Source of the DNA: Pseudomonas helmanticensis
Lineage (GTDB): Bacteria > Pseudomonadota > Gammaproteobacteria > Pseudomonadales > Pseudomonadaceae
Direction: 5' to 3'
NCBI RefSeq assembly: GCF_900182985.1
Contig: NZ_FXUY01000001.1
Span: 1,984,001 to 2,048,000, forward strand
Length of the DNA stretch: 64,000 nucleotides
The translations under genes and the position numbers were made by a program. This document shows positions 5,284-14,859 of this stretch, in pieces (the first letter of the stretch is position 1; each line of letters starts with the position of its first letter). Under the pieces are notes generated by a model. The model saw nothing but the letters and a program-made list of their open reading frames with translations. It was not told the origin of the DNA and made no database searches.

Positions 5284-5504
5284 TACTCACTCTCTTGATC
5301 TGTGGCGCCGAGACATCTATTGGCCGACGCGTGGCGCCAAGTTTATACGGCCTAAAGTCGGCAATCGACCAAAAAAATCGTAATGCTGAATCGACATTTT
5401 CGCCAGAGCGTGTAGGGCTATTCTGAAAAGCCGCTTTGCCATAAGCATTCGGCGCTGCGGTTTCGTACCCTCTGGGGCCGTATTGCCAGACAGAGCCTGT
5501 GCGA

Positions 5505-6887
5505 ATGCTCAATGACATGGAAAGTCCCTTCACGCTGACCCTGACCGACAGTGGATTGCAAATGCCGGTGTTGCGCTTTCGCGGTGAGGAAGCGCTCAAC
5601 CAGCCCTACCGCTTCGACATCGAACTGATCAGCCTCGGCCCGGCCATGACGCCAGGCACGCTGTTGCAGCAACCGGCATTCCTGCATCTGAGTGATCATC
5701 ACGGGGTTCACGGGCGCATCGACAGCGCCAGTTGCGAACATCGCGGTGCGCATCGGGTCGGCTATCGAGTGGTGCTGGTGCCCTCCCTTCAACAACTCGC
5801 GCAAGCACAAAAACGCCGCGTCTTTGTGCACTTGAGCGTGCCGCAGATTCTCCAACAGTTACTCGAGGAAAACGCGCTGCCGGTCGACAGTTACCGAATG
5901 GAAGTGATCGTCGGCCAATACCCCCAGCGCGAGTTCTGCATTCAATATGAGGAAAGCGATCTGGCCCTGCTGCACCGCTTGTGCGAGGAAGAAGGCATTC
6001 ATTACCACTTCGAACATGGCCCGGACGGGCATGTCGTGGTGTTCGCCGACGACAGTCTGAGTTTGCCGCAAGAGCCCACGCTGCTGCCGTTCAGCCTCGA
6101 TGACGAGGCGCCCTCGCCGCACATCGCGACGCTGTTCCAGCGGCATGACGCGGTGCCAGTCGCACCGCAACGTCATGTACGCAATCGCGGGCAACGAGAC
6201 CTGCGCGAGGATGCCGCGAACCAGAGCATAACGGGGCCGACAACAACGCTGTCCCAGCCACATCGCTATGCCGAACAACGCAGCCGTCGTCATCTGCAAC
6301 GTCAGCGCTGCGAATATCGCTCGATCCATGGCCGCAGCGATTGCGTGGACCTGCTCAGCGGTCAATTGGTCCAGGTTGCGGAGCATCCGATCAACAGTTT
6401 CAACGAACAATGGTTGATCACCGAAATGCGCCATCACGGGCAACAGCCGTCGATTCTCGAGCCGACACCCAGCGTTTACCGCTACCACAACGATTTCGTT
6501 GCCCTGCCCTGGTCGACGGAATTTCGTCCGGCACTCAAACAGCCGCGACCGGCGATCCCCGGTTATCACCTGGCGCGCGTACTCGGCACGCCCGGGCAGC
6601 CGGCATCTCTCGATGACCAGGGCCGGATCAACGTCAGTCTGTGGTCTGTCGCAACGGTGCAGGCCGACGATGGAATATGGCTGCCAATTGCCCTGACCAA
6701 CGCCAATGGACGGATCGCCGCCAATGAACTGCCCTGTGCCGGCAGCGAGGTGTGGGTGAGTTTTCTCGACAGCGATCCGGATCGACCGATCCTCTGCCTG
6801 GGCACGCAAGGCGAACTGCCGCAGCAACAAATACCGCCCACTCAAGACAATCCCCAGTTACTCGACTGGCTCCTCTACCGCAACTAA
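5505..6887 (+). CDS. vgrG: Type VI secretion tip protein VgrG, short orphan
   Basis: A 460-residue VgrG-like protein. Residues 1 to about 340 match the gp27-like base (FTLTLTDSG, LRFRGEEALNQPYRFDIELIS, ESDLALLHRLCEEEGIHYHFEH). About 360-445 is the gp5-like OB domain (DDQGRINVSLW, GSEVWVSFLDSDPDRPILCLG). The protein ends just after it, whereas usual VgrGs of 600 or more residues continue into a beta-helix needle. No Hcp, PAAR, chaperone or effector gene is adjacent. A GTG at 5499 and an ATG at 5517 are alternative starts, none with a clear ribosome site. It may be a functional short tip that recruits a PAAR protein or a decaying remnant. The reading frame itself is intact. Confidence 0.83.
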   Translation: MLNDMESPFTLTLTDSGLQMPVLRFRGEEALNQPYRFDIELISLGPAMTPGTLLQQPAFLHLSDHHGVHGRIDSASCEHRGAHRVGYRVVLVPSLQQLAQAQKRRVFVHLSVPQILQQLLEENALPVDSYRMEVIVGQYPQREFCIQYEESDLALLHRLCEEEGIHYHFEHGPDGHVVVFADDSLSLPQEPTLLPFSLDDEAPSPHIATLFQRHDAVPVAPQRHVRNRGQRDLREDAANQSITGPTTTLSQPHRYAEQRSRRHLQRQRCEYRSIHGRSDCVDLLSGQLVQVAEHPINSFNEQWLITEMRHHGQQPSILEPTPSVYRYHNDFVALPWSTEFRPALKQPRPAIPGYHLARVLGTPGQPASLDDQGRINVSLWSVATVQADDGIWLPIALTNANGRIAANELPCAGSEVWVSFLDSDPDRPILCLGTQGELPQQQIPPTQDNPQLLDWLLYRN

Positions 6888-6991: not shown

Positions 6992-8383
6992 TCAGGCTTT
7001 GTCGGCCTTGCCCGCCGCCGCAGCGAATTTCGCCAGCCGTACGTCCAGGTGCCGTGGCAGCCGACCGTGGTCTTCAGCGCGCTCCTTGCGCCGGATGGCG
7101 TTGCGCACCATCAGCGAACCCAGATAACGGATCGGCTCCGGCGGAAAGTAGCCCAGCGGGCCGTTGACCAGCGGCGAGCGCGTCCACGGGTTATCCAGGC
7201 CTTGCACCAGCGACGCGAGAATCTGCCCGCCCATGTGACACGGGCCAACGCCGCTGCCGGAATAGCCGAAACCGTAGAACACATTGCCGCTGCTGCTCAT
7301 CTGCCCGAAAAACGGCAGGCCGGTCACCGAGCGATCCGAAGGACCGTTCCAGGTCGCGTCGACTTTGACCTCGGCAAACGCCGGAAAAAAATCGCCGAGA
7401 CTGCGCTTGAGTAATCCGGCGTACGGCGACGGCTGATCGAACACCGGCAGCATTCGCCCACCAAAGGCAAACGTGTTACCGCCCTTGCCAAGCATGATCC
7501 GGCCGTCCGGGGTGTTGTGGTAGTAGTGCACGAAGATCCGCGAATCGAGCACGGTGACACCACTGGTCAAGCCGATTTCCTGCAGCAGTTCCGGGCGCGG
7601 CTCGGTGATCAGCATGTCGCTGGAAACGATCGCCACGCTGCGTTCGAACTGCGGGAAAGCGCGGGCCATCCACGCATTCATCGCCAGCACCACGCGGTCG
7701 GCGACAACCCTGCCGGTGGCGGTATGAATGCGCGCCGGGCGGCCCTCTTCAAGGCCGGTCATCGCCGTGTTTTCATGGATCTTCACGCCGAGCTGCAAGG
7801 CCACACGGCGTAATCCGCGCACCAGTTTGCCCGGTTGCACACTGGCCGCCGCCGGCGAGAACCAGCCTTCCAGATGCTTGGCGGAACCGGCCATGCGCTG
7901 CACATCGGCGAGCGGGCGCTGGCTGAACGAGTTGATGCCATTGCGCTCCAGCGCCGCGATCACTGCGTCGGTCGAGCCGACCTGCGCACGATTGGTCGCG
8001 GTGTACAGCGTGCCGTCGAGCCGGTAATCGGCATCGACGCCGTACTGTTCGCAGAACTCGCCGATGGCATGAATGCTGCGCTCAGATTCCTTGACCAGGC
8101 GCACTGCTTCCTCGACGCCGAACAGGCGCTCCAGGGTGAAATACTTGGCCGACCACGACAACGCGCAGCCACCGTTGCGCCCACTGGCACCAGCGCCGCA
8201 GATGTCGGCCTCGATCAGCAACACATCGAGCTCCGGGTTCTGCTGCTTGAGCATGATCGCTGTCCACAACCCGGTGTAACCGCCGCCGACGATGCACACG
8301 TCAGTGCGCACTTCGCCTTGCAGCGGTGCACAGGTTTCAGACGTGTCGGTGTGCAGGGCCTGCTCCAGCCAAAACGGTCTCAT
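6992..8383 (-). CDS. FAD-dependent amine oxidoreductase (DAO family), AEP-cluster associated
   Basis: A 463-residue flavoprotein of the D-amino-acid-oxidase-like fold, with dinucleotide motif IVGGGYTGLWTA at residues 31-42 and GASGRNGGC following. It resembles gamma-glutamylputrescine-oxidase-type enzymes. I chose the ATG at 8383 because GGAG lies 9 bp upstream. The next gene upstream in the same direction, 72 bp away, is an organophosphate-type MFS carrier, and phnW-phnX plus two phosphonate-type LysR regulators lie within 6 kb. Recurrent FAD oxidases near phnWX in other bacteria have been reported to oxidise AEP or N-methyl-AEP to phosphonoacetaldehyde. A similar role here is inference from family and location; polyamine or amino-acid amine oxidation is the alternative. 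Confidence 0.75.
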   Translation of the reverse strand: MRPFWLEQALHTDTSETCAPLQGEVRTDVCIVGGGYTGLWTAIMLKQQNPELDVLLIEADICGAGASGRNGGCALSWSAKYFTLERLFGVEEAVRLVKESERSIHAIGEFCEQYGVDADYRLDGTLYTATNRAQVGSTDAVIAALERNGINSFSQRPLADVQRMAGSAKHLEGWFSPAAASVQPGKLVRGLRRVALQLGVKIHENTAMTGLEEGRPARIHTATGRVVADRVVLAMNAWMARAFPQFERSVAIVSSDMLITEPRPELLQEIGLTSGVTVLDSRIFVHYYHNTPDGRIMLGKGGNTFAFGGRMLPVFDQPSPYAGLLKRSLGDFFPAFAEVKVDATWNGPSDRSVTGLPFFGQMSSSGNVFYGFGYSGSGVGPCHMGGQILASLVQGLDNPWTRSPLVNGPLGYFPPEPIRYLGSLMVRNAIRRKERAEDHGRLPRHLDVRLAKFAAAAGKADKA

Positions 8384-8455
8384 GGGTTTTCTCCAGTCAG
8401 TTGGCCACGCCACAGCCTGCCGCGTGCGTCGCAGCAGGCCGCGAGGCAAGGGTTT

Positions 8456-9781
8456 TCAGGAACGCAGGGGTTTGATCGTCAACGGGCAATTGGGGATGGA
8501 GGCGCGTGGTTCCATCACACCGACCGGGCGGCTGTTCCAGTGCGGAATCAGCACCAGCGCCGAAAACAGCGCGCAACCGGCAAACACGATGAACACCGTG
8601 ACTGAGTCGAAGTAACCCGGCAACAAGCCACCGAGCACCGCACCGACCGATCCGCAGCCGTTGACGAAACCGGCCGCCGTGGCACCGGCCTTGGCTTTGC
8701 CGAAGTCGATGGCCGCTGCGCCGCTGATCATCGAATCCGGGCCGTACAGGGTCAGGCCCATGACAAACAGCAGTGCGACCACCAGCAAAACACTACCGGT
8801 GTGCAGAGCGCCCATGAACAGCGCCAGCGTCACGGTCAGTGCGAGCAGACTAAGCACGCAGGCCGGCATGCGCCGGGCGCCGAAGAGCTTGTCCGAGGCC
8901 AGGCCAATCATGATCGGCCCAAGCAGACCGGCCAGCTCGAACGAGGTCGGAATGATTGCCGCACCGACCTTGCCAACGCTGGGCATTTGCTCGAAGACAA
9001 TCACCGGGCCCCACAGCAGAATCGCGTAACGCGCCGGTTTCAGCATGAAATACGCCAGGCCCAGCACCAGCACCGTGCGATTGCGCAGGATTTCCTTTAA
9101 CGGTTCCCAGACGCTGAGTTTGCTGTTGGCTTCGGTCTCCTCTGCGCTGAGTTCCGGCTCCGGCTCGACCGCCGGCAGGCCAACATCTTCCGGTTTGTTG
9201 CGCTGGAAGATGAAGAACACCACCGCCACCACCGCGACCACCGCTGCGCTGGAAATAAACGCCGCGTGCCAACTGCCCACCAGCGTATACGCCCACCAGC
9301 CGGCAAACGGCGAAGCCACCAGACCACCGAAGGCGTAGCAGGAACTCCATAAACCGAGCACCCGCCCGCGCTGTTGCGCAGGGAAGAAACTGCCAAGGTT
9401 TTTACACAACCCCGACCACCCGGTGGACTGCGCCAGGCCCTGAATCAACATGCAGGTAGCGAAGATTGGTAGTGTCGCGTAGCTACCCATCACCAGCGCC
9501 GCTGCGGCGGAAATCAGCAAACCGCCAAGCACCACGACCCGTGGGCCAAAGCGGTCGGCGAGCATGCCCCAGGTGAATTGGCCGATGGCGTAAGCCGCCA
9601 GATAGATCGCATCAAGGTTGGCCATGGCCATCTTGTCGAGCATGAAGGTGGGGTCTTCGGCGATGCCGAGTTTGGCCACCGAGAAAGCTTTGCGGGTGAA
9701 GTAGAAAGCGGCGTACGCGAGCCAGGTGACAGCGAAGATCTGCACGCGCCAACGCGCAATGGTGCCGATGTGCTTGTTCAT
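8456..9781 (-). CDS. MFS transporter, organophosphate/phosphonate type
   Basis: A 441-residue inner-membrane carrier with about 12 hydrophobic helices and a charged central loop (RNKPEDVGLP, acidic stretch near 215). It resembles the GlpT/UhpT/PgtP organophosphate:phosphate antiporter family (TRKAFSVAK near the N-terminus, DRFGPR between helices 2 and 3, WSGLCKNLGSFF). The start at 9781 has GAGGT about 10 bp upstream; a longer reading to 9931 is not supported. It lies directly before the FAD oxidase gene and divergently from a LysR gene. Uptake of AEP or a related aminophosphonate is the likely job, inferred from context. Confidence 0.78.
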   Translation of the reverse strand: MNKHIGTIARWRVQIFAVTWLAYAAFYFTRKAFSVAKLGIAEDPTFMLDKMAMANLDAIYLAAYAIGQFTWGMLADRFGPRVVVLGGLLISAAAALVMGSYATLPIFATCMLIQGLAQSTGWSGLCKNLGSFFPAQQRGRVLGLWSSCYAFGGLVASPFAGWWAYTLVGSWHAAFISSAAVVAVVAVVFFIFQRNKPEDVGLPAVEPEPELSAEETEANSKLSVWEPLKEILRNRTVLVLGLAYFMLKPARYAILLWGPVIVFEQMPSVGKVGAAIIPTSFELAGLLGPIMIGLASDKLFGARRMPACVLSLLALTVTLALFMGALHTGSVLLVVALLFVMGLTLYGPDSMISGAAAIDFGKAKAGATAAGFVNGCGSVGAVLGGLLPGYFDSVTVFIVFAGCALFSALVLIPHWNSRPVGVMEPRASIPNCPLTIKPLRS

Positions 9782-9995
9782 GGTGGTTCTGACCTCAGGG
9801 TGTGAGTGTGCCGGCAGAATCGTTAAGAAAAACGCCTGTGTTTTTATTGTTGAGCACTGCGATATCCCCCCATCCCTATGGCGATACCGGTCAGATGAGT
9901 CCTGCTGTTGCACGCACAGGCTCATGGCCATTGCTGCTCCCGAACGAGCAGTCAGCGATGGCGTGAGCCGATCAAAGCAATTACTGTTTAATAAA

Positions 9996-10008
9996 TAAAA
10001 TCGATTTA
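9996..10008. promoter_or_regulatory. Candidate LysR box between the MFS gene and its divergent regulator
   Basis: A T-N11-A element with a perfect 10-bp palindromic core (AAATCGATTT), inside the 268-bp divergent gap, 42 bp before the LysR start. The shape and position fit a LysR-type operator, but a single site is weak evidence. Confidence 0.35.
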
Positions 10009-10049
10009 TCGTATTTCACACATAAGCTCAGCTTGTTACTGGAGCATTC

Positions 10050-10922
10050 ATGTCCGTCTCCCACGCCCAGCTCAAAGCCTTCCATGCCGTGGCCGTGCAT
10101 GGAAGCTTCACCAAAGCCGCCGAGCGGCTTTTTCTCACGCAACCGGCGATATCCGACCAGGTGCGCAAACTGGAGGAGCGTTTCGGCGTTCTGCTGTTTC
10201 ACCGCAATAAGCGTTCCGTGCGCCTGACCGATCTTGGTGAGCGCTTGCTGGCGATCACCCAGCGCCTGTTCGTGATTGAAGCCGAAGCGCAGGAATTGTT
10301 GCAGGAATCCCAGGCCCTGCAGACCGGCAGCCTGATTCTGGCAGTCGATGCGCCGGTGCACGTGTTGCCGCAGATCGCGCGGTTCTGTGAGCGTTATCCG
10401 GGGATCAGCGTGAAAATCGAGACTGGCAACACCGATGAATCGCTGTTTCGCCTGTTCAACTATCAGGCCGATCTGGCGTTGCTCGGGCGCGATGTCAGTG
10501 ACGAGCGTTTGCTCTGCGTGCCGCTGCGCAACGACCCGATGGTCGCATTCGTCTCACGCCATCACCCGTGGGCCGAGCGTGAATCGATTTGCCTGGCGGA
10601 CCTCGATGACACGCCGTTGGTGTTGCGCGAACACGGCTCGGTGACACGGCAGACGCTGGAGGAAGAAATGGCCCGCGCCGGGTTTCGCATTCGCCCGGCG
10701 ATTCAGGTTGAAGGCCGCGAAGCCGCGCGCGAGGCGGTGGTGGTGGGGATTGGCGTGGGGGTGGTGTCGGCGGCAGAGTTTGGTGCGGATTCGCGGGTCT
10801 GCGCATTGCCAATCATTGATTGCACGCGCCGGCTGACGGAGACGCTGGTGTGCCTGCGCGAGCAGAGTTCGCGGCGGGTGGTGGCGACGTTTTTGCAGAT
10901 GGTGCGCGAGAGTCTGGTGTAG
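10050..10922 (+). CDS. LysR-family regulator, phosphonate-catabolism type
   Basis: A 290-residue LysR regulator: N-terminal winged helix (LKAFHAVAVHGSFTKAAERL, QPAISDQVRKLEERFGVLLF) and a periplasmic-binding-like effector domain. It is divergent from the MFS/FAD-oxidase genes, so it probably controls them. Its sequence is visibly related to the second LysR at 11803-12663, which is divergent from phnW. Both look like the LysR subgroup associated with aminoethylphosphonate catabolism. The effector is unknown; AEP or phosphonoacetaldehyde is a guess. Confidence 0.82.
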   Translation: MSVSHAQLKAFHAVAVHGSFTKAAERLFLTQPAISDQVRKLEERFGVLLFHRNKRSVRLTDLGERLLAITQRLFVIEAEAQELLQESQALQTGSLILAVDAPVHVLPQIARFCERYPGISVKIETGNTDESLFRLFNYQADLALLGRDVSDERLLCVPLRNDPMVAFVSRHHPWAERESICLADLDDTPLVLREHGSVTRQTLEEEMARAGFRIRPAIQVEGREAAREAVVVGIGVGVVSAAEFGADSRVCALPIIDCTRRLTETLVCLREQSSRRVVATFLQMVRESLV

Positions 10923-11047
10923 CTGTGCCCTGACCTGAACGTCAGCTACACTGGCGCCTTGCCATCTGTCACAAAAAATTTCGCAGCATCACCGTCTGAG
11001 ACGCATCGAGCCTGTCGCGGCTCGACCATGGAATCGAAGTACGCATC

Positions 11048-11776
11048 GTGAAGAAAATAATAAATTCAGTTCGGAATCATTTCTGGAAAAAATCCATTCG
11101 CCAGCATGCCTGCAAAGTCGCCGGCGGGATTTTTTCGTTGCACAAGCGATCGACACTGACGCTCGAAGAACACGTCAGCATCGGCCACGTGGTGATCGAG
11201 TCGAAACACCTCGCCATCGGTGCGCACACCTACATCAGAAGTGATTGCGTACTGTCTGCGGTTTCCTCCATTGGCCGCTTCTGCTCGATCAGTACCCGCT
11301 GCTTTATCGGCCAGCAAAAGAGCTCTCATCCAACCGACTGGCTCAGTTCTCACCCCTTTCAGTACACCGATACCGCCCTGATCTTCGACCCGGTGGTGGC
11401 CGACGTCACGATCGGTCACGACGTGTGGATCGGCCACAGCGCGATGATCCTCGAAGGCGTGCAGGTCGGCACCGGCGCAATCATCGCGACGCGCGCGCTG
11501 GTGACCCAGGATGTTCCGCCTTACGCAATCGTTGCCGGCACCCCGGCGAAAATCATCAAATACCGGCATGACCCGCACACCATTGCACGCTTGCTTGACA
11601 GTCAGTGGTGGAACCTCGATGTGCAATTGCTGCAGACGCTGCCATTGAATGATCCTGCCGCCGCGCTGGACCAACTGGAGAGCATGCAGCTGAAGCAGGC
11701 GAATTACCCAAGAATCGAAATCACCCGAAAAAGTACCGCGATCCTGCCGGCTCAGCCGCAATTGACCATGGCCTGA
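11048..11776 (+). CDS. CatB-like hexapeptide-repeat O-acetyltransferase
   Basis: A 242-residue left-handed beta-helix acyltransferase with repeated hexapeptides ([70 protein letters not shown]). The HP...F loop ([14 protein letters not shown]) and the GHDVWIG motif match xenobiotic/CatB-type and colanic-acid-type acetyltransferases that use acetyl-CoA. It starts with GTG at 1104811048 less certainly than usual: the first 60 bases are unusually A-rich and have no strong ribosome site. It sits between the two phosphonate-type LysR genes but has no evident link to phosphonate metabolism. The substrate could be a surface glycan or a small molecule. Confidence 0.75.
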
Positions 11777-11802
11777 ACTGGATGCCGCGACTGCGCCTGA
11801 GG

Positions 11803-12663
11803 TCAGCCAGGCGCCAACGCGAAAAACGCCTGGATCAAACGCAAATCCCGGCGCCGCTCCATGCAGCCGATCATGTGCCGGTTGACCAGGCCGTCGCCGA
11901 TGATCGGAATCGCCACCACGCGCGGGTCATGGCTGACTTCCACCGATGACACCACACCGACACCCAGCTCAGCGGCGACGGCTTCCGTCACCGCCTCACG
12001 GCTATCGAGTTCCAATAACACCCGTGGATGAATCGAGGCCTGTTCACACGCTTGATCAAAGGTACGCCGGGTGATCGAACTCGGTTCACGCAGCACCATG
12101 ATCACCTGATCCAGCTCCTTGAGCTTGACCTCCCCCGCGCGCGTCGCCCAGGCATGCGTTGCCGGCACCAACGCGCAAATCCGCGATTCGCTCAAGCCTT
12201 GCAGGTGCAGGCCTTTGCGCGGTTCGACTTCAGTCAGCACCGCCACATCGGCATGCTCGGACAACAGCGCCGCGAGGGTTTCCTGCGCATTGCCCAAGCG
12301 CAGATTCACGGTAATCCCCGGATACCGCGCGCGCAGGCTGGCGAGCATCGGCATGACCATGTGCGGGCCGTCCGCCGCCACTTCCAGACGCCCGGTAAGC
12401 AATTGTCGATTGGCCTCAAGCAGCACCTGCGCCTCTTCCGCGAGGCCGAACATCGCCCGGGTGATCGCCGCCAGTTTTGTGCCCTCCTCGGTCAGCTCCA
12501 CTCGTCGCGCGGTGCGCCGCAGCAAGGTGATCTGGTAGTGCTCCTCCAGCGCCTTGATGTGCCCGGTGACCGCCGGCTGACTGATGAATAACCGCGCAGC
12601 AGCCCGGGTAAAGCTGCCTTCGCGGGCCACGGCGTCGAAGGCGCGCAGCTGAAACAGATTCAT
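11803..12663 (-). CDS. LysR-family regulator divergent from phnW
   Basis: A 286-residue LysR protein: helix-turn-helix LRAFDAVAREGSFTRAAARL and QPAVTGHIKALEEHYQITLL, then the effector domain (ADGPHMVMPMLASLRARYPG). It is head-to-head with phnW across 112 bp, the normal layout for a LysR activator of phnW-phnX. It matches the LysR subgroup linked to aminoethylphosphonate catabolism. The intergenic region has TTGATGCAA and TTGCAA elements that may be parts of its operator. It overlaps no other gene; the convergent acetyltransferase ends 26 bp away. Confidence 0.85.
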   Translation of the reverse strand: MNLFQLRAFDAVAREGSFTRAAARLFISQPAVTGHIKALEEHYQITLLRRTARRVELTEEGTKLAAITRAMFGLAEEAQVLLEANRQLLTGRLEVAADGPHMVMPMLASLRARYPGITVNLRLGNAQETLAALLSEHADVAVLTEVEPRKGLHLQGLSESRICALVPATHAWATRAGEVKLKELDQVIMVLREPSSITRRTFDQACEQASIHPRVLLELDSREAVTEAVAAELGVGVVSSVEVSHDPRVVAIPIIGDGLVNRHMIGCMERRRDLRLIQAFFALAPG

Positions 12664-12775
12664 GAATAGCTCTCGCTGATGGCTGGCATAACAACAAACA
12701 ATTTGATTGATGCAACGCCGAATTGCAACGTATGCCCCGTAGCTTCATCCCACAGCGCTATCCGAGGACACACGA

Positions 12776-13885
12776 ATGAGTATCGCCGAACCCATCCTGC
12801 TCACTCCCGGCCCGTTGACCACTTCGGCCCGCACCCGTCAGGCGATGATGGTCGACTGGGGATCATGGGATGACCGCTTCAATCAACTGACCGCCAGCCT
12901 GTGCGAACAATTGCTGGCGATCCTCAACGGCGCGGCCACTCACCATTGCGTGCCGTTGCAGGGCAGCGGCACCTTCGCCGTCGAGGCGGCGATCGGTACT
13001 CTGGTGCCGCGTGACGGCAAAGTCCTGGTGCTGATCAACGGTGCCTACGGCAAGCGTCTGGCGAAGATCTGCGAAGTGCTCGGCCGCTCGTTCAGCACTT
13101 TTGAAACCGCTGAAGATGAACCGACCACCGCCGCCGACGTCGACCGTCTGCTGCGCGCCGACAGCGACATCACTCACGTCGCGCTGATCCACTGCGAAAC
13201 CAGCACCGGGATTCTTAATCCTTTGGCGGAAATCGCCGAAGTCGTTGAGCAACACGGCAAACGCCTGATCATCGATGCCATGAGTTCCTTCGGAGCGTTG
13301 CCGGTGGATGCGCAAAAAGTCCCGTTCGATGCCTTGATCGCGGCCTCCGGTAAATGCCTGGAAGGCGTGCCGGGAATGGGTTTTGTCTTCGCCCGCAAAG
13401 AGTCGCTGGCGGCTGCCGCCGGCAATTCGCATTCGTTGGCGATGGATCTGTTCGACCAGCACGCCTACATGATGAAAACCGGCCAATGGCGCTTCACCCC
13501 GCCGACCCACGTGGTCGCGGCGCTGCACGAAGCATTGCTGCAATACAACGAAGAAGGTGGCCTGCCGGCGCGGCATGCGCGCTACGCCGCCAACTGTCAG
13601 GCACTGATGGAAGAGATGGCCAAACTCGGTTTGCGCAGCTTCCTGCCGGCGGCGATTCAGGCGCCAATCATCGCCACGTTCCATGCGCCGAACGATCCGC
13701 GGTACCAGTTCAAGGACTTCTACGAACGGGTCAAGGCCAAGGGTTACATCCTCTATCCCGGCAAACTGACTCAGGTCGAAACCTTCCGCGTCGGCTGCAT
13801 CGGCCACGTCAGCCCGGACGAAATGCGCCAGGCCGTCGCGGCGGTGGGCGAAGTGCTGCGCGAAATGGAAGTCCTCGACATCTAA
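12776..13885 (+). CDS. phnW: 2-aminoethylphosphonate--pyruvate transaminase
   Basis: A 369-residue fold-type I PLP aminotransferase that converts AEP plus pyruvate to phosphonoacetaldehyde plus L-alanine. Recognisable features are [10 protein letters not shown] at the N-terminus, the DWGSWD stretch, [11 protein letters not shown] (PLP phosphate loop), Asp in IIDAMSSFG and the Schiff-base Lys at 193 in [11 protein letters not shown]. The length is normal for PhnW. GAGGA lies about 10 bp before the ATG. It is first in the phnW-phnX unit and is divergent from a LysR regulator that probably activates it. Confidence 0.95.
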
Positions 13886-13903
13886 AACCCACCCTAAATC
13901 CCC

Positions 13904-13994
13904 TGTAGGAGTGAGCCTGCTTGCGATAGCGGTCGAACATTCAACATTTTTTGTCGACTGACACGCCCTCATCGCGAGCAGGCTCACTCCCACA
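13904..13994. repeat. REP doublet inside the phnW-phnX operon
   Basis: Inverted arms TGTAGGAGTGAGCCTGCTTG... and ...GCGAGCAGGCTCACTCCCACA around a 45-bp centre, lying in the 146-bp gap between two cotranscribed-looking genes rather than at a transcript end. Confidence 0.85.
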
Positions 13995-14031
13995 GTTTGA
14001 ATTGCATTGCCAAATCAGGAATTTAATTGCC

Positions 14032-14859
14032 ATGAACTACGTCAATCCAAGCAAGCTGCAAGCCGCGATCCTCGACTGGGCCGGCACCGTGGTCGATTTC
14101 GGTTCTTTCGCGCCGACGCAGATTTTCGTCGAAGCCTTCGCCGAATTCGATGTACAGGTTTCCATCGAAGAAGCCCGCGGGCCGATGGGCATGGGCAAGT
14201 GGGATCACATCCGTACCCTCTGCGATCAGCCGCAAGTCGCCGAGCGTTATCGCAAAGTCTTCGGCCGCACGCCGACCGACGATGACGTCACCGCGATCTA
14301 CAAGCGTTTCATGCCCCTGCAGATCGAGAAGATTGCCGAACACTCGGCGCTGATTCCCGGCGCCCTGGAAACCATCGCCAAGCTGCGCGAGCAAGGGATC
14401 AAGATCGGTTCGTGCTCCGGCTACCCGAAACAGGTCATGGATAAAGTCGTCGAACTGGCCGCCAGCAACGGTTATGTCGCCGACCACGTGGTCGCCACCG
14501 ACGAAGTGCCGAACGGTCGCCCATGGCCGGCTCAAGCACTGGCCAACGTAATTGCACTGGGCATCGACGATGTCGGTGCCTGCGTGAAGATCGACGACAC
14601 CGTGCCCGGCATCCTCGAAGGCCGCCGCGCCGGGATGTGGACGGTCGCGCTGATCTGCTCCGGCAATGCGCTGGGCCTGGATTACGCCGGTTTCCGCGCC
14701 TTGGGCAGCGATGAACTGGCCAGCGAACGCAAACGCATTCACGCACTGTTCGAAAGCTCGCGCCCGCACTATATGATCGACACCATCACTGACTTGCCGG
14801 AAGTGATTGCCGACATCAACAAGCGTCTGGCCAAGGGTGAGATGCCGCAGACGAGCTGA
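14032..14859 (+). CDS. phnX: Phosphonoacetaldehyde hydrolase (phosphonatase)
   Basis: A 275-residue HAD-superfamily enzyme that cleaves the C-P bond of phosphonoacetaldehyde to acetaldehyde and phosphate. The nucleophile Asp 15 lies in ILDWAGT, and Lys 55 in GMGKWDHIR is the cap-domain Schiff-base lysine of phosphonatases. SCSGYPKQ and [18 protein letters not shown] supply the remaining HAD motifs. The start at 14032 is chosen over an in-frame start at 13951, which would run through the REP doublet. It is followed by a strong terminator. Confidence 0.95.

Follow-up and report, generated by a model that had tools for sequence, protein, structure and literature searches.

The 64,000-nt window analyzed here (C1:1984001-2048000 of the two-contig, 6.53-Mb genome of Pseudomonas helmanticensis) carries a gene for a flavin adenine dinucleotide (FAD)-dependent oxidoreductase, for which we propose the name pbfB (positions 6992-8383, minus strand), separated by 72 nt from a gene for a transporter of the major facilitator superfamily (MFS) on the same strand (8456-9781). 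The MFS gene is divergent from the regulator gene LysR1 (10050-10922, plus strand). A second, related regulator gene, LysR2 (11803-12663, minus strand), is divergent from phnW (12776-13885, plus strand) and phnX (14032-14859, plus strand), which encode 2-aminoethylphosphonate (AEP)-pyruvate transaminase and phosphonoacetaldehyde hydrolase. The MFS-oxidase unit probably forms a stand-alone accessory to the phosphonatase pathway, with a switch of its own made up of LysR1 and a candidate operator at 9991-10012 (minus strand; ACGATAAATCGATTTTATTTAT, with a palindromic core of the T-N11-A type). The oxidase is PbfB-like and is predicted to convert N-methyl-AEP to phosphonoacetaldehyde and methylamine.

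Every named gene is an open reading frame at the position given, with its start refined by three criteria: the codon itself, a sequence resembling a ribosome-binding site, and conservation in related genes. PhnW scores 558.7 bits against TIGR02326 (cut-off 400.8) and PhnX 329.2 bits against TIGR01422 (cut-off 220). Both regulators belong to TIGR03339, "aminoethylphosphonate catabolism associated LysR" (cut-off 341.1), LysR1 with 422.8 bits and LysR2, barely over the cut-off, with 341.8 bits. The two are 38.7% identical over 279 residues, and LysR2 is 76.4% identical to the LysR protein beside P. aeruginosa phnW. These reading frames and family scores confirm the gene set and arrangement described in the original prediction. 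The order phnX-phnW-LysR2-LysR1-MFS-oxidase is intact in 75 of 80 related loci, which are close kin because they were taken as the best 80 of 249 matches; the other five (L037, L041, L046, L068, and L078) are incomplete, with one to three genes missing, and all are stretches starting at a contig end.

The oxidase and its transporter partner

The oxidase scores 832.8 bits against TIGR03329, "putative aminophosphonate oxidoreductase" (cut-off 632.8), and also matches PF01266. The second-best family reaches 115.4 bits, and the score against TIGR03364 is 40.6 bits, under the cut-off of 285.1. All four phn-region enzymes tested, from Vibrio campbellii, V. parahaemolyticus, Plesiomonas, and Paraburkholderia, pass TIGR03329 with 760.9-851.5 bits. 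Four relatives with annotated, phn-free neighborhoods fall under the cut-off at 417.8-517.3 bits, and E. coli PuuB scores 182.9 bits. A class-wide survey found TIGR03329 above its cut-off in one of 370 genomes, the source genome itself.

Relatives of the oxidase in phosphonate regions are 52.7-63.9% identical to it. The Plesiomonas gene sits directly 3' of AEP ABC transporter genes, the Paraburkholderia gene directly 3' of phnW, and a Variovorax gene (60% identity) 3' of phnA-phnY; in Vibrio, ∼4 to 12 kb separate the gene from phnX, and in V. parahaemolyticus this interval holds unrelated genes. In a 25-row tree, the 16 rows from phosphonate regions or from genomes carrying both the oxidase and phnX formed one clade (99/100), with six nearer relatives outside it and PuuB on a separate branch. 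Four of the six rows classed as "other" have annotated neighborhoods (L130, L131, L208, and L209) and two have short flanks only (L094 and L095). Row L207, from Variovorax, is interrupted by an in-frame stop (residue 11 of the stretch used) and was kept as read in both the tree and the residue comparison. That comparison yielded a list of positions peculiar to the PbfB-like rows, none of which could be named as phosphonate-binding, and the structure model of the oxidase was too poor for use (mean predicted local distance difference test score of 41.6).

The oxidase is 30.7% identical to E. coli PuuB, close to the 29.2-33.4% found for the Vibrio and Plesiomonas relatives. The original prediction had presented the oxidase as a phosphonate-linked FAD enzyme and had proposed phylogenetic placement against phosphonate FAD oxidases and PuuB as a check. 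The placement bears it out: the oxidase groups with the phn-region enzymes, apart from PuuB. Identity of the oxidase as PuuB or as an amino-acid oxidase is rejected on the TIGR03329 score, the low identity to PuuB, and the tree.

The MFS protein (PF07690) is closest to the organophosphate:phosphate antiporter (OPA) family. It passes no NCBIfam cut-off among the matches listed, the nearest being TIGR00881 with 214.3 bits (cut-off 407.75). It is 27.0% identical to E. coli GlpT over 423 residues. Of four GlpT residues taken as phosphate-binding, Arg-45 and Arg-269 are retained, and Lys-80 and His-165 are replaced by glutamine and tyrosine, respectively. AepP of P. putida BIRD-1 has been described as an OPA-family AEP permease with a LysR regulator of its own, and the transport demonstrated is that of AEP, not N-methyl-AEP (PMC8316502, PMC9311074). 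By family, LysR partner, and co-occurrence (below), the MFS protein of the window appears AepP-like and is predicted to import aminophosphonates; that it carries N-methyl-AEP is our guess from the operon context.

Distribution of the unit and its candidate operator

The unit was surveyed in 149 Pseudomonas genomes, using the TIGR03329 cut-off for the oxidase, E values of 1e-60 or better for the MFS protein, and 1e-50 or better for phnX. The oxidase was found in 49 genomes, the MFS gene in 55, and phnX in 103. All 49 oxidase genomes carry both phnX and the AepP-like MFS gene, and none of the 46 genomes lacking phnX carries either the oxidase or the MFS gene (Fisher tests for the oxidase, p = 1.4e-10 with phnX and p = 4.3e-33 with MFS). 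Three genomes (G379, G440, and G514) have oxidases under the cut-off only, and two of these lack phnX. The oxidase lies within 5 kb of the MFS gene in 47 of the 49 genomes. In 33 it has phnX no more than 15 kb away; no phnX was seen that near in the other 16. At least one of these 16, G390, has its phnW-type site on the contig of the MFS gene, and there the distance may reflect a contig break.

LysR1-MFS intergenic regions were aligned in 85 loci and LysR2-phnW regions in 83. When the LysR1-MFS region is compared with the differently arranged units of genomes G374 and G497, the block ACGNTAAATCGATTTTATTTAT stands out, with a score of 24 against shuffle maxima of 13 (100 shuffles) and 14 (50 shuffles). 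The 22-bp palindrome on the MFS side occurs once in the 6.53-Mb genome at up to three mismatches. At up to two mismatches it occurs 59 times in the 149 genomes (reversed control, 0), and the 55 genomes that bear it are exactly the 55 with the MFS gene. Of these sites, 55 precede that MFS gene and four precede oxidase units (G374, G497, G414, and G444); four further MFS copies, ∼70% identical, have no site of their own. In G414 and G444, the oxidase is separated from the MFS gene yet is preceded by the site. The two moves may be one event, and no LysR1-like gene was found in the 12 kb around the G414 oxidase. The site lies 38-58 bp from the LysR1 start and ∼210 bp from the MFS start, and because it is nearer the former, its role may include autoregulation of LysR1.

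The region before phnW has a different candidate operator, ACAAACAATTTGATTGATG (12694-12712, plus strand), which is conserved across Pseudomonas genomes. This palindrome occurs once in each of 96 of the 149 genomes, and 93 of the 96 sites lie upstream of phnX, on its strand and no more than 2.5 kb away; seven of the 103 phnX genomes lack it. The MFS-side site was absent before phnW, both in the source genome at up to three mismatches and among the 59 sites of the 149 genomes.

The two units also occur apart or in other arrangements. In G470, 1.27 Mb separate LysR1-MFS-oxidase from LysR2-phnW-phnX, and each LysR gene stands beside its own unit. In G374 and G497, a LysR1-like gene (67-68% identity) is divergent from a single one-strand run of oxidase (81-82%), PhnW-like transaminase (51%), a second AepP-like MFS gene (64-68%), and phnX (75-77%). 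The oxidase, transaminase, and LysR of G374 and the oxidase of G497 pass their family cut-offs. In G374 the run is longer at both ends: a RidA-type gene (PF01042, 78.1 bits) precedes the oxidase, and phnX is followed by a fragment of an aldehyde dehydrogenase near ExaC (865.8 bits, cut-off 900). RidA proteins hydrolyze imines and ExaC-type enzymes oxidize acetaldehyde, which makes the run look like a complete route leading from the amine to acetate.

Motifs of the form AANAANAA were also observed on the coding strand before the MFS gene (∼9835-9850, minus strand) and before phnW (12690-12697, plus strand). Among the aligned regions, all 85 on the MFS side and 80 of the 83 on the phnW side have such a motif, the rows being close kin; of 200 shuffled window rows, 7 and 3, respectively, had it. 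We take them to resemble Crc/Hfq catabolite-repression sites.

Proposed pathway and alternative explanations

In the pathway we propose, the AepP-like protein would import an aminophosphonate, and the PbfB-like flavoenzyme would oxidize the C-N bond of N-methyl-AEP to an imine that falls apart to methylamine and phosphonoacetaldehyde. PhnX would cleave the latter to acetaldehyde and phosphate, and PhnW would handle plain AEP, likewise yielding phosphonoacetaldehyde. LysR1, as an AepR-P-like regulator, would switch the MFS-oxidase module via the 9991-10012 palindrome, and LysR2, as an AepR-WX-like regulator, would switch phnWX via the separate site. We favor a second entry route, in addition to PhnW, because the only published relatives with activity data (the PbfB group, one of three groups of FAD enzymes named by Zangelmi et al., 2023) make phosphonoacetaldehyde from N-methyl-AEP; extracts containing V. 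vulnificus PbfB released phosphate via PhnX from N-methyl-AEP and none from AEP (PMC10590968). The side branch of AEP catabolism put forward in the original prediction, with two routes into phosphonoacetaldehyde, is well supported, the activity and the import being predicted. We advance more tentatively, as short of an even chance, the narrower proposal of a module dedicated to the import and oxidation of N-methyl-AEP, whose LysR protein senses N-methyl-AEP or a product through a 22-bp operator that travels with a relocated oxidase. Were this so, Pseudomonas would use a methylated aminophosphonate as a source of phosphorus, nitrogen, and carbon apart from the AEP switch of phnWX.

Several points limit, or weigh against, the reading as an accessory module built around a PbfB-like enzyme. 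A first tree of 28 rows, with long-branched ones and with PbfC, PbfD1, SolA, and distant paralogues among them, failed to resolve the PbfB-like rows; 10 long or distant rows were dropped for the 25-row tree, and row L088, a four-residue fragment, was left out of both. The PbfC and PbfD1 rows were labeled by organism or genus and by their place beside phnX, the A. baumannii strain differing from that of the published work. Likewise, V. vulnificus PbfB is equated with the enzyme type of our Vibrio rows from genus and gene region, with other Vibrio species as stand-ins. No purification of PbfB itself has been published, and the sole PbfB assayed was assayed in cell extracts (PMC10590968). The Fisher p values overstate the association because the genomes share ancestry. 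Six genomes have the MFS gene without the oxidase, so the transporter must be useful without it, which fits the oxidase being an optional enzyme. A sister MFS group, ∼70% identical, lies beside a HAD hydrolase without the LysR1 site in G469, in G510, and on a P. aeruginosa plasmid (L198, L199, and L211); it is possibly another phosphonate or phosphoester carrier, and it makes orthology of the MFS protein to BIRD-1 AepP uncertain. Finally, among the 85 close kin, other blocks of the region, located near the start of the MFS gene, are better conserved than the MFS-side site.

The original prediction had treated the two units as one regulon, which would have both LysR proteins, or one of them, act on both promoters. 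We now regard this as unlikely. In its favor, both regulators belong to TIGR03339, the matching blocks of the two promoter regions lie at like distances from the LysR starts, and their best ungapped match scores 12 (shuffle mean, 9.2; reached by 3 of 100 shuffles). In BIRD-1, moreover, full expression from the aepP, aepXVW, and phnWX promoters depends on AEP, although loss of AepR-WX was reportedly not compensated by the other AepR proteins, and the authors suspect that each AepR serves its own operon (PMC9311074). A single operator shared by both units was sought, and only the weak likeness above was found, next to two different conserved palindromes. Such faint likeness is expected of paralogous regulators. 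Among the 149 genomes no copy of the MFS-side site lies before phnW, the genomes bearing the phnW-side site have a single copy of it, almost always before phnX, and the units are apart in up to 16 of the 49 oxidase genomes. Two related LysR proteins thus probably run two modules, which may answer to similar inducers, and the weak promoter likeness leaves room for what may be some cross-talk.

The substrate could also differ from that proposed. That the oxidase acts mainly on AEP, on another aminophosphonate such as N,N-dimethyl-AEP or hydroxylated AEP, or on glyphosate-like amines has a low probability in our estimation. PbfD-type enzymes do oxidize AEP, and one of them N,N-dimethyl-AEP, and a single PbfB has been assayed, in extracts (PMC10590968). 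However, that enzyme gave no phosphate from AEP, PhnW already covers AEP at this locus, and the known enzyme for hydroxylated AEP is PbfA, which is no oxidase. Far less credible still is a polyamine or amino-acid oxidase lying near phnWX by chance. The PF01266 fold, the 30.7% identity to PuuB, and the occurrence of relatives at ∼44% identity in hydantoinase, fructoselysine, and other clusters would allow it, but the genome has PuuB-like proteins of its own (70.1 and 65.8% identical to E. coli PuuB), and the TIGR03329 score, the co-occurrence, and the site data all speak for the phosphonate module.

Neighboring genes, other phosphonate loci, and known systems

Between LysR1 and LysR2 lies a hexapeptide acyltransferase-like gene (11048-11776, plus strand) that is present in four of the 80 related loci and looks like a recent insertion. 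Its nearest family, "phosphonate metabolism transferase" TIGR03308, gives 119.6 bits, well under the cut-off of 201.65. On the other side, the oxidase stop codon lies ∼100 nt from the end of a reading frame (5499-6887, plus strand) that is VgrG-like (type VI secretion) by translation. The oxidase is absent from G417 and G421, where different genes follow the MFS gene in its place. OxyR has been reported to bind the P. aeruginosa phnW promoter (PMC5720770) and is a possible further input.

The source genome of the window has two further phosphonate loci. One (L195; G000:C1:4744000-4758000) has an AEP ABC transporter (phnS2, 535.5 bits, cut-off 392.75) and a third TIGR03339 LysR gene, followed by a TIGR03364 FAD oxidase (456.5 bits, cut-off 285.1) and a Phn-HD oxygenase (232.6 bits, cut-off 214.6), so that a second kind of phosphonate FAD oxidase is present in one genome. 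The third locus (L194; G000:C1:1666000-1684000) has a PhnD-type binding protein, an OPA-type MFS gene, a LysR gene, a second phnX, and a PsrA-type iron alcohol dehydrogenase (551.8 bits, cut-off 423.7), with no phnW within that stretch. This gene content suggests that 2-hydroxyethylphosphonate enters at phosphonoacetaldehyde there.

Among known systems, V. vulnificus PbfB is likewise an FAD enzyme of PF01266 tied to phnW and phnX, with a published identity to PuuB of 31.2% (PMC10590968) against 30.7% for the window oxidase under other alignment settings. Its Vibrio kin pass TIGR03329 as the window oxidase does and are ∼53% identical to it. Unlike that system, the window oxidase has an MFS protein, not an ABC transporter, at its side, together with a LysR regulator, and the main text of PMC10590968 does not contain the word Pseudomonas. 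TIGR03364/PbfD and HpnW FAD oxidases share the superfamily and the proposed role, but the window oxidase falls under the TIGR03364 cut-off, and the genome has a separate gene of that family. The AepP/AepR-P pair of BIRD-1 is also an OPA-family MFS protein beside a phosphonate LysR, with a published GlpT identity of 27.75% (PMC8316502) compared with 27.0% here. The likeness is drawn from the published description of AepP, whose demonstrated substrate is AEP, and the terms FAD and oxidoreductase occur zero times in the main texts of PMC8316502 and PMC9311074. PhnWX with AepR-WX matches the phnW, phnX, and divergent LysR of P. aeruginosa (proteins 76-80% identical) and of BIRD-1, with nothing notable to set it apart.

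Publications thus already cover the types of enzyme and permease, PhnWX, and the AepR concept; the candidate operator looks new, no description of a PbfB-AepP unit or of an AepR operator having been found in the portion of the open-access literature available. Three N-methyl-AEP enzymes have been published, and PbfB is the least characterized among them, since purification failed for the only PbfB attempted. The form described here, which is widespread in Pseudomonas (49 of 149 genomes) and comes with a constant transporter gene and a candidate operator, offers a tractable handle on the enzyme, on the substrate preference of AepP-like carriers, and on what AepR proteins sense, and it sets apart two modules that would be lumped as a single AEP regulon.

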